In this document: positions 2,914 to 50,093 of the stretch, piece after piece
Layout: the number at the start of each line of letters is the position of its first letter
Position numbering within the stretch: position 1 is the stretch's first letter
Assembly: GCF_019145355.1 (NCBI RefSeq)
Contig: NZ_JAHSTY010000001.1
Coordinates: 3,286,001-3,350,000, forward strand
Source of the DNA: Pseudomonas azadiae
GTDB lineage: Bacteria > Pseudomonadota > Gammaproteobacteria > Pseudomonadales > Pseudomonadaceae
Reading direction: 5' to 3'
Length of the DNA stretch: 64,000 nucleotides
Program-made: the position numbers and the translations under genes
Notes under the pieces: model-generated
Seen by the model: the letters and a program-made list of their open reading frames with translations, nothing else
Databases searched by the model: none
What the model was told of the DNA's origin: nothing

Positions 2914-3195
2914 CTTAACTTGCGCGCCTGCCTACAGGTGCGCCAGAATCCGCCGGCTTGTACGGCTGGCTTGTCGTCTCTAAGGTTGCTCGGTCGCTGC
3001 TCATCAGCGATCAGGTTTAGTAGCCTGAGGATCAAGTTAAGCGCGTACCGCGCCGCTTTTTATGGCGGCTGTGTGCAGGGCATCTTCGGGTGCGCCGGTT
3101 TTTGCTTAACTTCCCCGGTCTACTAACCTGCGCACAGCTGCCACCCAATCGTTTAGTAGCGAGTCGATGGCGGCCTCATTCGAGGAAGTTAAGAC
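2914..3195 (+). other. Candidate structured RNA leader of the DUF6124 gene
   Basis: There is no gene in this 280-base stretch but dense secondary structure. CTTAACTT occurs at 2914-2921 and 3105-3112. Its complement AAGTTAAG occurs at 3034-3041 and 3186-3193. The last pairing extends to ten bases (3105-3114 with 3184-3193) and covers the GGA of the Shine-Dalgarno. Hairpins are seen at 2922-2943 (9-bp stem with one G-U, CCTA loop), 2994-3010 (6-bp stem), 3011-3028 (loop TTTAGTAG) and 3080-3093 (C-UUCG-G tetraloop). TTTAGTAG recurs at 3152-3159, and its near complement CTACTAA is at 3120-3126. Strand follows the downstream gene. Function unknown. Confidence 0.55.
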
Positions 3196-3432
3196 ATGTT
3201 CAAACCAACCCCAAATCCACCCCCCTCCATCTTCACCATCGCCGCCGATATCGATGACGAAGCGCTGATGATCAACAGTTTCGAAACCTTCTCCTCGGTC
3301 AGCACCTTGTTGCTGGACCTGTCCGAGGACCTGGACGGCAAGCACCGCGATGTCGCGCTGGCCATTCACCAACTGAGCGCCTTGGGCACGCAGATGGTCA
3401 GCCGTATGCTCGACCGCCAAGCGGCCATCTGA
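3196..3432 (+). CDS. DUF6124 family small protein
   Basis: A 78-residue acidic cytoplasmic protein with no signal peptide or membrane segment: a proline-rich N-terminus (about residues 4-11), then two predicted helices (about 20-47 and 49-75). It resembles the small Pseudomonas-specific family DUF6124 (formerly grouped with DUF3077), usually present in several copies per genome. No function is known. The ATG at 3196 follows GAGGAAG with suitable spacing. That ribosome site lies inside one arm of the inverted repeats described upstream, so translation may be structure-controlled. It shares a bidirectional terminator with convergent glnA. Confidence 0.75.
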   Translation: MFKPTPNPPPSIFTIAADIDDEALMINSFETFSSVSTLLLDLSEDLDGKHRDVALAIHQLSALGTQMVSRMLDRQAAI

Positions 3433-48191: not shown

Positions 48192-50093
48192 GCGGAACTT
48201 GCCGACCAAGGTCTGCAGGTCCAGGCTCAACTTCGTCAACTGAACGCTGGCGGCCGCGGTTTCCTCACTGGCGGTCGCGGTCATTTGCGACACATCCCGC
48301 ACCTTCATGACGCTGCGATTGATTTCCTCGGCCACGGCACATTGTTGCTCGGCGGCCGCGGCGATCTGCGGGTTCATTTCCTGGATGACCGAGACCCTGA
48401 GAATAATCGCTGCCAATGCATCGCCCACATCGCGGCTCAGGTCGACGCTGTAGTCGGTCAATGCGCGGCTGCCGTCCATGATATCCGCCACCTGCTGGGT
48501 GCCGGTGTGGAGCCCGCTGATCAGTCCCTCGATTTCTTCCGCCGATTCCTGGGTGCGCCGGGCGAGACTGCGCACTTCATCGGCGACCACGGCAAACCCT
48601 TCGCCTGCGGGCCCTGCACGGGCGGCTTCAATGGCGGCATTAAGGGCCAGCAGGTTGGTCTGTTGCGACACCGATTTGATTACGTCCAGCACGCCGCCGA
48701 TCTTCTGGCTCTCGCGCTGCAAGGCAATCATGGCCTGGCTGGCGCGCGCCATTTCGTGGGCCAGATGACCTATCTGCTCCACGGCTTGCCCGACGACCTT
48801 GTCGCCGGCGGTGGCTTGTTGGTCGGCCTCATCTGCCGCTTTTGAGGCTTCTTCTGCATGCCGCGCGACCTCCTGGGCGGTGGCGAGCATTTCGTTCATC
48901 GCGGTCGCGACCTGGTCGGTTTCATCCTTCTGGTTACTGATGCCCGCGCGAGTCTGCTCGGTCACGCTCGAGAGCTGTGTGGCGGCGCTGGCGATCTGCC
49001 GGGCGCTGTCACCGATGCCGCTGATCAGCCGGCGCAGGTTGCGGGTCATGTCGCCGATGGTTTGCTGCAGTTGGCCCAACTCATCGCCACGTTCCACCTG
49101 GATCTCGTGGCTCAGATCGCCCTGCGCGATGCGGTTGGCGGATGCCAGCACTTGGCGCAGCGGCACGGCGATCTGCCGGGCGATCCACCAGGCAGCCAGC
49201 GTGCCGAGTAACAGGGCTGCCAGCGTGACGCTGATCAGCAGCGTTCGAGTGTGGCTTGCTTGCTTGTCGCGTTTTAGGGTCTGGCTCTCGCTTACGGCTT
49301 CGTTGTGTTCGAGCAACTGATTGAGCTGCTGTTCAAACCGATTCTGTGCGGTTTCGGTGTTGAGTTGGGCTTGCTTGAGCGCGATCAGTTGCGTGCGATA
49401 GTTCGCCAGGTCGGTTTTGAGCAGGGTTGAGTCGGCGGGCAGGTTTGTCACGGCGGCCTGAGCGACGTCCAGTGCGTCGAGGGCATTGCCGACCGCTTCG
49501 GCATAGGCTTGCAACGACTCGGCACCCCAGGCGGGGCTTTGGGCCTTATCCTCGGCTTGCTCCATGGCTTGGCGCAGGCTTTCGATGGCGTCCAACGCCT
49601 GCTCGTCTTGCTGGTCAGGCAGTTCGCTGGCCAGTTGTGCGAGGCTGTCACTGGCCTGCAGCGCGCTTGCCTGGAGCGGGGGGCGAATGCTGTCACGCCG
49701 TTCGATCAATGGCGGCAACTCGACGAGCGCCGCTTTGAAATCCTCGACAAGCCGTTCTGCCGCTTGAATACGCTGCAGGTCGCCTGGGTCCTTGAGGTGG
49801 GTCGCCAGATAACCGAGATGCCGGCCGATGGTTTCGATCTGCCGGGTCATCTTGCCCAGGCTGGCGGTGTCCGTCAGGGTTCGGTACACGATGCGGTCGG
49901 CGCGCATGGCCTCTGCGACCGTCGCCAGTTGGCCGAGGACCGACAGGTTGCTTGAGCGGAAAAGCACCTCGCTCAGGGCCTGCCAGCCAGTCATGGCAAT
50001 GATGAGACTGAGGACCAGCACCTGGCCGAAGCCCAAGGCGAGTTTGATACGGACGCTGGCGTTGGCCAGCAAGCGGGTCAGCCGAGGAAACAT
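48186..50093 (-). CDS. Methyl-accepting chemotaxis protein, copy 1
   Basis: A 635-residue chemoreceptor. A first membrane helix (about 17-38) precedes a roughly 245-residue helical periplasmic domain, a size that suits the helical bimodular (HBM) class. A second helix ([22 protein letters not shown], about 282-303) leads into HAMP ([27 protein letters not shown]). The signalling hairpin follows with [45 protein letters not shown]. It ends LVGKFRL with no CheR-tethering pentapeptide. Its ATG follows TGGAGG. Ligand unknown. Paralogue of the next gene. Confidence 0.93.

Follow-up and report, generated by a model that had tools for sequence, protein, structure and literature searches.

The question raised by this locus is what kind of RNA stands in front of a small DUF6124 gene of Pseudomonas azadiae, where complementary words alternate along the leader and one of them reaches the ribosome site. 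The gene lies in a stretch of 64,000 nt (NZ_JAHSTY010000001.1, positions 3,286,001-3,350,000 of the forward strand), referred to here as the window, which was followed up in silico. An earlier sequence-only reading had described interlocking inverted repeats that might act as a translational switch, and its words and complementary segments are all found where it placed them: CTTAACTT at 2914 and 3105, AAGTTAAG at 3034 and 3186, TTTAGTAG at 3016 and 3152, and CTACTAA at 3120, with 3104-3112 complementary to 3034-3042 and 3184-3193 complementary to 3105-3114. The segment at 3105 can pair upstream or downstream, each pairing excluding the other, and the downstream one covers the ribosome site of the DUF6124 gene, as that reading had it. 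By word count alone the pattern is weak evidence, as dinucleotide shuffling of the window yields, in 20 of 100 cases, an 8-mer and its reverse complement each present at least twice within 282 nt. The repeats are counted as real because the segments at 3034, 3105 and 3184 vary jointly among orthologues. A second, unrelated 8-mer case of this kind is present in the window (GCTGATCA at 49020).

Layout and fold of the leader

The sequence-only reading knew of no named RNA class with this arrangement. The Rfam search that it recommended names two: C4, matched over the full length of its model at 3058-3148, and c4-a1b1, matched at 2980-3031. Judged from sequence and predicted fold, the leader is a C4 antisense RNA of the phage P1 type. 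The interlocking repeats are read as the two antisense loops of C4 (named a and b after P1) and two sets of targets because the layout matches that of P1, whose annotated record runs a1, b1, C4, a2, b2, icd; the order in the window is a1'-b1'-C4-a2'-b2'-ORF. The a pairing consists of TTTAGTAG with CTACTAA, a second pairing that had been suggested before and that fits the P1 layout, and the b pairing consists of AAGTTAAG with CTTAACTT on the Shine-Dalgarno sequence. The features, all on the plus strand, are as follows.

2981-2986, plus strand: predicted -10 element TAAGGT, from gap-free alignment with the -10 element TATAGT of the P1 c4 promoter
near 2993, plus strand: expected transcription start, placed from the P1-aligned -10 element
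2980-3031, plus strand: c4-a1b1 upstream target element with two hairpins (Rfam RF03163, 48.8 bits, cut-off 46.7)
3016-3023, plus strand: putative a1' (TTTAGTAG), looped in a hairpin and complementary to the a segment (3120), as in the P1 layout
3034-3042, plus strand: putative b1' (AAGTTAAGC), complementary to b and switching in step with b and b2' among orthologues
3058-3148, plus strand: C4 antisense RNA (Rfam RF01695, 78.1 bits, cut-off 45)
about 3064-3145, plus strand: expected mature C4, with ends placed from P1
3105-3114, plus strand: looped b segment of C4 (CTTAACTTCC), able to pair with 3034-3042 or 3184-3193
3120-3126, plus strand: a segment of C4 (CTACTAA), able to pair with TTTAGTAG at 3016 or 3152
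3152-3159, plus strand: putative a2' (TTTAGTAG), complementary to a, as in the P1 layout
3184-3193, plus strand: putative b2' (GGAAGTTAAG), forming ten pairs with b and overlapping the Shine-Dalgarno sequence
3196-3432, plus strand: DUF6124 gene, 78 aa, a predicted helical hairpin (PF19619, 83.5 bits, cut-off 27)

A consensus scan of the window leader for a sigma-70 promoter found none. The promoter region of phage P1 aligns with the leader, and the segment holding the promoter and hairpin (2976-3010) is identical in four of five compared orthologues and agrees at 34 of 35 positions in the fifth. The promoter predicted from this alignment lies upstream of the element, and not downstream of 3105, the position by which the sequence-only reading expected transcription to have begun. 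That reading had also counted the repeat at 2914 as part of the element. This word remains CTTAACTT in four of six loci in which b has changed, is altered in three of six in which b is unchanged, and lies upstream of the predicted promoter, and therefore outside the element. Further upstream, a 39-nt inverted repeat (85% complementary, 2780-2866) adjoins the C4 unit and is of the kind called REP elements in Pseudomonas. A terminator-like hairpin with a T tail is present at 3041-3053, between a1b1 and C4. An IsrK-like terminator at this place was rejected as a general feature, being found in only 6 of 36 copies, the window's included.

The C4 domain consists of a long stem and a UUCG-type hairpin, which holds the C-UUCG-G tetraloop previously noted in the leader, with a and b placed in loops. 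Its stems comprise 25 consensus pairs, and in 12 of them the pair is kept with both sides altered among the 36 copies of the same genome, so that the stems covary, the absence of which would have counted against the sequence-only reading. A model built from these 36 copies matches P1 c4, which lay outside the training set, with 50.6 bits, and identical scoring, in windows set from the P1 annotation, recovered each of the four P1 pairings. Folded alone, the window C4 reaches -42.9 kcal/mol with both pairing segments looped. The predicted duplexes amount to -13.6 (b:b2'), -11.4 (b:b1'), -12.2 (a:a1') and -7.2 kcal/mol (a:a2'). Cofolding gives just the summed energies of the separate folds, without a preference for C4-target pairing; the model cannot represent loop contacts, and cofolding is therefore no argument for or against binding. 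The 5′ side of C4 carries GG in all 36 copies and the 3′ side CCACC in 35, and in P1 and P7 RNase P cleaves C4 at GGW, according to the available text of a study of Acinetobacter (PMC5320573). By analogy we infer that the window C4 would be excised by RNase P, in the C4 class to an RNA of about 77 nt, and would act in trans.

The same pairings would permit a switch acting in cis, in which the 3105 segment pairs upstream to leave the ribosome site open or downstream to close it, with no free RNA involved. Both pairings are present within one transcript and exclude each other, and pairing in cis would yield the same comparative data. Such a switch is nonetheless improbable: the segment is looped in a strongly paired, covarying and self-folding domain, the GG and CCACC ends match those of the excised P1 RNA, and C4 is a separate RNA both in P1, by annotation of the record, and in Acinetobacter, by read coverage in the text of PMC5320573 available. 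Of the translational switch proposed earlier the exclusive pairings stand, and action in cis is less likely than that of a processed RNA in trans because C4 folds alone with both segments looped.

The leader and its gene very probably form a C4 unit of the P1/P7 immI kind that has been domesticated on the chromosome. A transcript beginning near 2993 would carry a1'-b1', C4, a2'-b2' and the DUF6124 frame, and the C4 fold would be excised from it (by RNase P in P1), exposing a and b in loops. Free C4 would bind a2' and b2' of the DUF6124 mRNA in trans, b covering the Shine-Dalgarno sequence so that the gene is silent, and the upstream a1' and b1' would compete for the C4 loops as a decoy by which repression is tuned or relieved. 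DUF6124 expression would follow from a shortage of C4 relative to its target; possible triggers are the entry of a new unit into a cell that has no matching C4, a burst of transcription, or another RNA that supplies an a'/b' decoy.

Units and codes within one genome

The P. azadiae genome contains at least 36 C4 matches over the cut-off (among 150 of 1983 first-look candidates, which were scored). At E<=0.1 it also has 39 matches to a1b1 and 27 to DUF6124, of which 15 and 25, respectively, pass their cut-offs. Judged by position, a DUF6124 or DUF3077 match above the cut-off lies behind at least 27 of the 36 C4s, which bears out the earlier suggestion that the element is multicopy along with DUF6124 genes; three DUF6124 places of the genome are without C4. 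Each downstream frame was taken to start at the first ATG at a distance of 34-70 nt from the C4 match, except for the second ATG in copy #22, ATA in #3 and an in-frame ATG at +44 in #21, and the chosen starts fall 36-54 nt behind the match. In 34 of the 36 copies the best b duplex overlaps a Shine-Dalgarno-like tetramer or the start codon. The 35 downstream proteins (all except that of #3, where ATA occupies the start position and the frame is short) include 23 matching DUF6124, 10 DUF3077 and one Bro-N, double matches being possible; two members that were checked gave no Pfam match at E<=1. One member matches phage antirepressor families and is taken to be the Bro-N one, copy #19. In copies #1 (L013) and #25 (L037) the C4-targeted start opens a frame of 24 or 37 aa, the stop of which overlaps the DUF3077 or DUF6124 start by ATGA, and icd and ant1 of P1 overlap likewise.

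Whether each C4 fits its own gene was scored across the 36 loci. A first matrix of duplex energies over wide windows was set aside, with the own partner first in 6 of 36 cases for b~b1' and 21 of 36 for b~b2'; its b~b1' comparison failed because strong unrelated sites drowned the signal. The figures reported here come from a second, adjusted analysis with narrower windows and an ungapped score. For b~b1', b~b2', a~a1' and a~a2' alike, none of 10,000 permutations then reaches the mean own score, the a~a1' test being biased because a1' was located using the locus's own a. When a2' and b2' are scored jointly, 33 of the 36 C4s have their own target in first place and 30 of the 36 targets their own C4, and 14 out of 1260 foreign pairs score at or above the lower own-pair quartile; for 15 of the 36 C4s a foreign b1' outscores the own in at least one case. 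The window C4 scores 40 with its own target and 35.5 with the next best. By these scores most units match their own gene best. Copy #24 has a weak b2', copy #30 has one foreign target that is better, and copy #29 (L040, G000:C2:192376-192469) has lost its downstream targets, with no a2'/b2' match and upstream targets intact; with #29 and #24 the self-matching rule thus has exceptions. With the window unit as target, the C4 of copy #29 scores 39.5, which puts this pair in the top two of the foreign ones. Because the b code differs among copies, the units of one genome, dozens in number, would be largely insulated from each other.

Four c4-a1b1 leaders that have no C4 match directly precede DUF6124/DUF3077-like genes, with an ATG 27-64 nt behind the hairpin.

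L048:4001-4053, L049:4001-4053, L050:4001-4053 and L051:4001-4050: C4-less leaders

These leaders keep the a1' hairpin, and in three of the four the a' segment fits C4s elsewhere in the genome, to which the b' segment fits poorly. A purely self-contained unit does not account for them, and they are possibly targets in trans or decoys. Another C4-less DUF6124 gene lies near a match to the PrrF sRNA (160.9 bits, L053:3778-3927).

Code changes at fixed sites and spread of the units

C4 stands upstream in 78 of 80 fetched DUF6124 loci, all of them relatives of the window protein. The 78 fetched loci carry 36 distinct b sequences, which fit their own targets, and an a segment that is largely shared. 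Synteny groups were formed by comparison of flanks among these 78 and the 36 loci of the own genome. The largest group, of 26 loci, holds 13 distinct b sequences, which are variants of six classes (by the analyst's own rule). With one locus per b, none of 20,000 permutations is as good for b~b1' or for b~b2', and no foreign target outscores the own one in 9 of 13 (b1') and 11 of 13 (b2'); one locus of the group (L185) fits both b1' and b2' poorly. On a tree of flanking DNA, in which the L202 branch is very long, the six classes require at least 13 changes among 25 rows. In these sequence comparisons b1' and b2' follow b when the code changes, and a new code for a unit would require the joint change of b1', b and b2'.

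The site of the window unit, between glnA and a chorismate-mutase gene, is represented by 12 loci (the window and L125-L135; L127 shows the mutase gene without glnA, and L133 glnA alone). Two b types occur there, in six loci each. In the five orthologues that were compared, the promoter-hairpin segment, a1' and a2' each differ by at most one base, and the three among them that are of type II keep 6 of 16 positions in b1', 7 of 13 in the b loop and 11 of 17 in b2'. The permutation test at this site is not significant (about 4,950 of 20,000 as good) because only four distinct b sequences exist there, and it is inspection of the two alleles that points to a code switch. Types I and II require at least four changes on the tree (the L127 branch being very long) and occur in close relatives, L129 and L128, which are sisters with a support of 95. 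The mutase gene was found in 23 of 31 genomes searched; glnA was reached in 17 loci (16 genomes), among which only the window's own has a DUF6124 match at this place. One genome, G017, retains a piece of the unit's upstream leader at the glnA site; the unit therefore seems to have been lost there.

It may be argued that these units are phage remnants in decay and have no function, as the scar in G017, the ATA start and short frame of copy #3 and the lost downstream targets of copy #29 might suggest. This reading is barely credible beside the coupled changes of b, the covarying stems and a median dN/dS of 0.17 among 12 orthologues (65 usable of 66 pairs), by which the DUF6124 protein is under purifying selection.

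C4 precedes most of the DUF6124 genes examined in other genomes, as the sequence-only reading had expected. In three further genomes a same-strand C4 lies within 450 nt upstream in 26 of 30 (two weak matches omitted), 27 of 29 and 9 of 11 DUF6124 genes, and conversely DUF6124 stands behind 62 of 93 C4s, the remaining 31 being without it in a count that scored DUF6124 only. Across the genus, C4 was found in 92 of 99 genomes (the own included), 91 of them over the cut-off, with a median of 13 copies; the count covers 39 scored candidates per genome, a number that eight genomes reach. DUF6124 and DUF3077 were found in 78 and 76 of the 99. The number of C4s follows the summed number of DUF6124 and DUF3077 genes with a Spearman coefficient of 0.94 (99 genomes, uncorrected for kinship). 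The seven genomes without C4 have neither family, and the 20 genomes without DUF6124 and DUF3077 have 0-4 C4s. A sample of the order gave C4 in 11 of 76 genomes, with at most six copies outside the genus, and one of the class (22 candidates scored in each) in 7 of 185, with at most three outside the genus. The scale, with many C4 units per chromosome, is unusual.

The protein, phage contexts and known systems

An AlphaFold2 model of the DUF6124 protein is a helical hairpin (mean pLDDT 85), and a structure search with it returned no match at E<=0.001. No similarity to Icd of P1 was found, by which DUF6124 as an Icd homologue was ruled out. A literature search on DUF6124 by name found no paper, nor did one, outside which most subscription papers fell, on C4 before DUF6124/DUF3077, its targets or code switching.

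The class sample has C4 about 50 nt before a SymE-family frame (L066:1500-1800, PF08845, 48.8 bits) and before a Bro-N frame (L065), from which it follows that C4 may be a silencer that is portable among small genes. These contexts, with the Bro-N frame of copy #19, lend something to the idea that the units are selfish and toxin-antitoxin-like, DUF6124/DUF3077 being harmful or growth-modulating, C4 the antidote, and code changes escapes from cross-silencing. The first P1 target, icd, is annotated as an inhibitor of cell division, and the unit is absent from the glnA site in other genomes and apparently lost in one. Against this, DUF6124 shows no similarity to Icd and no fold match at E<=0.001, and purifying selection across several species fits a host function equally well. 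The idea, which concerns the role of the protein and is compatible with the C4 mechanism, is possible but doubtful.

A scan of viral contigs for the 3′ half of the Pseudomonas C4 gave 82 stretches, 80 of which yield 85 occurrences. Proteins matching the DUF6124/DUF3077 alignment follow 38 of the 85, another small frame family follows 27, and in 16 no frame of at least 45 aa is present in the span examined. The small family has about 52 aa (M.ALxPSKIRAxAHRRMAL..., in L213, L246, L258 and other viral-contig loci), and no PHROG match was found for the three members tried. The presence of Pseudomonas-type C4s in predicted viral contigs, 27 of 85 before this other family, and the near-identity of some phage b loops to chromosomal ones (own12, own19, own22) are what would be expected if the chromosomal C4s acted in trans mainly on C4-controlled phage genes, DUF6124 being secondary; a comparable idea has been put forward for Acinetobacter in the available text of PMC5320573. 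Such an immunity array is nevertheless quite improbable. With a and b scored jointly, a phage's own C4 beats the best of 114 chromosomal C4s in 22 of 26 phage units, ties in two and loses in two, so that cross-targeting of phages by chromosomal C4s was mostly rejected, with exceptions. The self-matching b2' and the purifying selection on the protein would also be needless, and a relative of the DUF6124 protein of copy #5 is found in only one of 50,697 phage records. That record (EU982300) is a P. fluorescens prophage region, with the DUF6124 relative at the record's edge behind a C4 (L069:2745-2831, 89.8 bits).

For the C4 units as preferred here, a further reading is that they are silent under their own code and that DUF6124/DUF3077 protein is switched on only when non-matching DNA enters, the whole forming a dispersed, multi-allelic self/non-self system. 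This is rather unlikely; if true, new codes would be favoured and b1', b and b2' swapped as a set at fixed sites, and the units would be a chromosomal counterpart to P1/P7 heteroimmunity.

The results offer candidate targets for chromosomal C4 RNAs, the role of which is left open in the available text of the Acinetobacter report (PMC5320573), and a regulatory context for two uncharacterised protein families, DUF6124 and DUF3077. Dozens of near-orthogonal antisense pairs per genome constitute a natural data set for antisense specificity, and alleles at the same site are ready-made swaps for testing it.

Among known systems, the IsrK locus of the Salmonella Gifsy-1 prophage has, in the available text of PMC4825925, a read-through mRNA that is silent and holds a small frame, a processed downstream RNA complementary to IsrK, and a short upstream RNA reported to activate the silent downstream message. 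The IsrK leader resembles c4-a1b1, and the Rfam matches of the two overlap on such leaders; copies #1 and #25, in which a short and the main frame overlap by ATGA, resemble that system as far as this text describes it. The window leader, in contrast, reaches only 25.9 bits for isrK (RF01394) against a cut-off of 50, and the terminator-like hairpin is confined to the few copies noted above.

The immI region of phages P1 and P7 (c4-icd-ant) shares the RNA fold, the order of elements and the position of b2' at the ribosome site. Unlike those of P1/P7, the Pseudomonas units are chromosomal, number dozens per genome with many b codes in one genome, and have as predicted target a DUF6124/DUF3077-type protein rather than icd/ant. 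The target in P1 is the icd-ant antirepressor operon, in place of which the unit has DUF6124, and since DUF6124 has no similarity to Icd the unit is of the C4 type without being an immI region. Acinetobacter baumannii likewise has many C4s per genome: the text available of PMC5320573 describes Group 1 C4-like sRNAs, with 21 C4 RNAs in one genome and processed-looking read coverage beginning at GG. It ascribes specificity to the a' loop, whereas in the DUF6124 units it is b that varies most, the a segment being widely shared. That text assigns no targets to the C4s, and the Pseudomonas units differ in that each C4 has a candidate target gene and codes switch at fixed sites. Measured against these sources as available, the C4 class and multicopy C4 in Acinetobacter were known, and none of them describes the Pseudomonas array, its candidate targets or the code switching.
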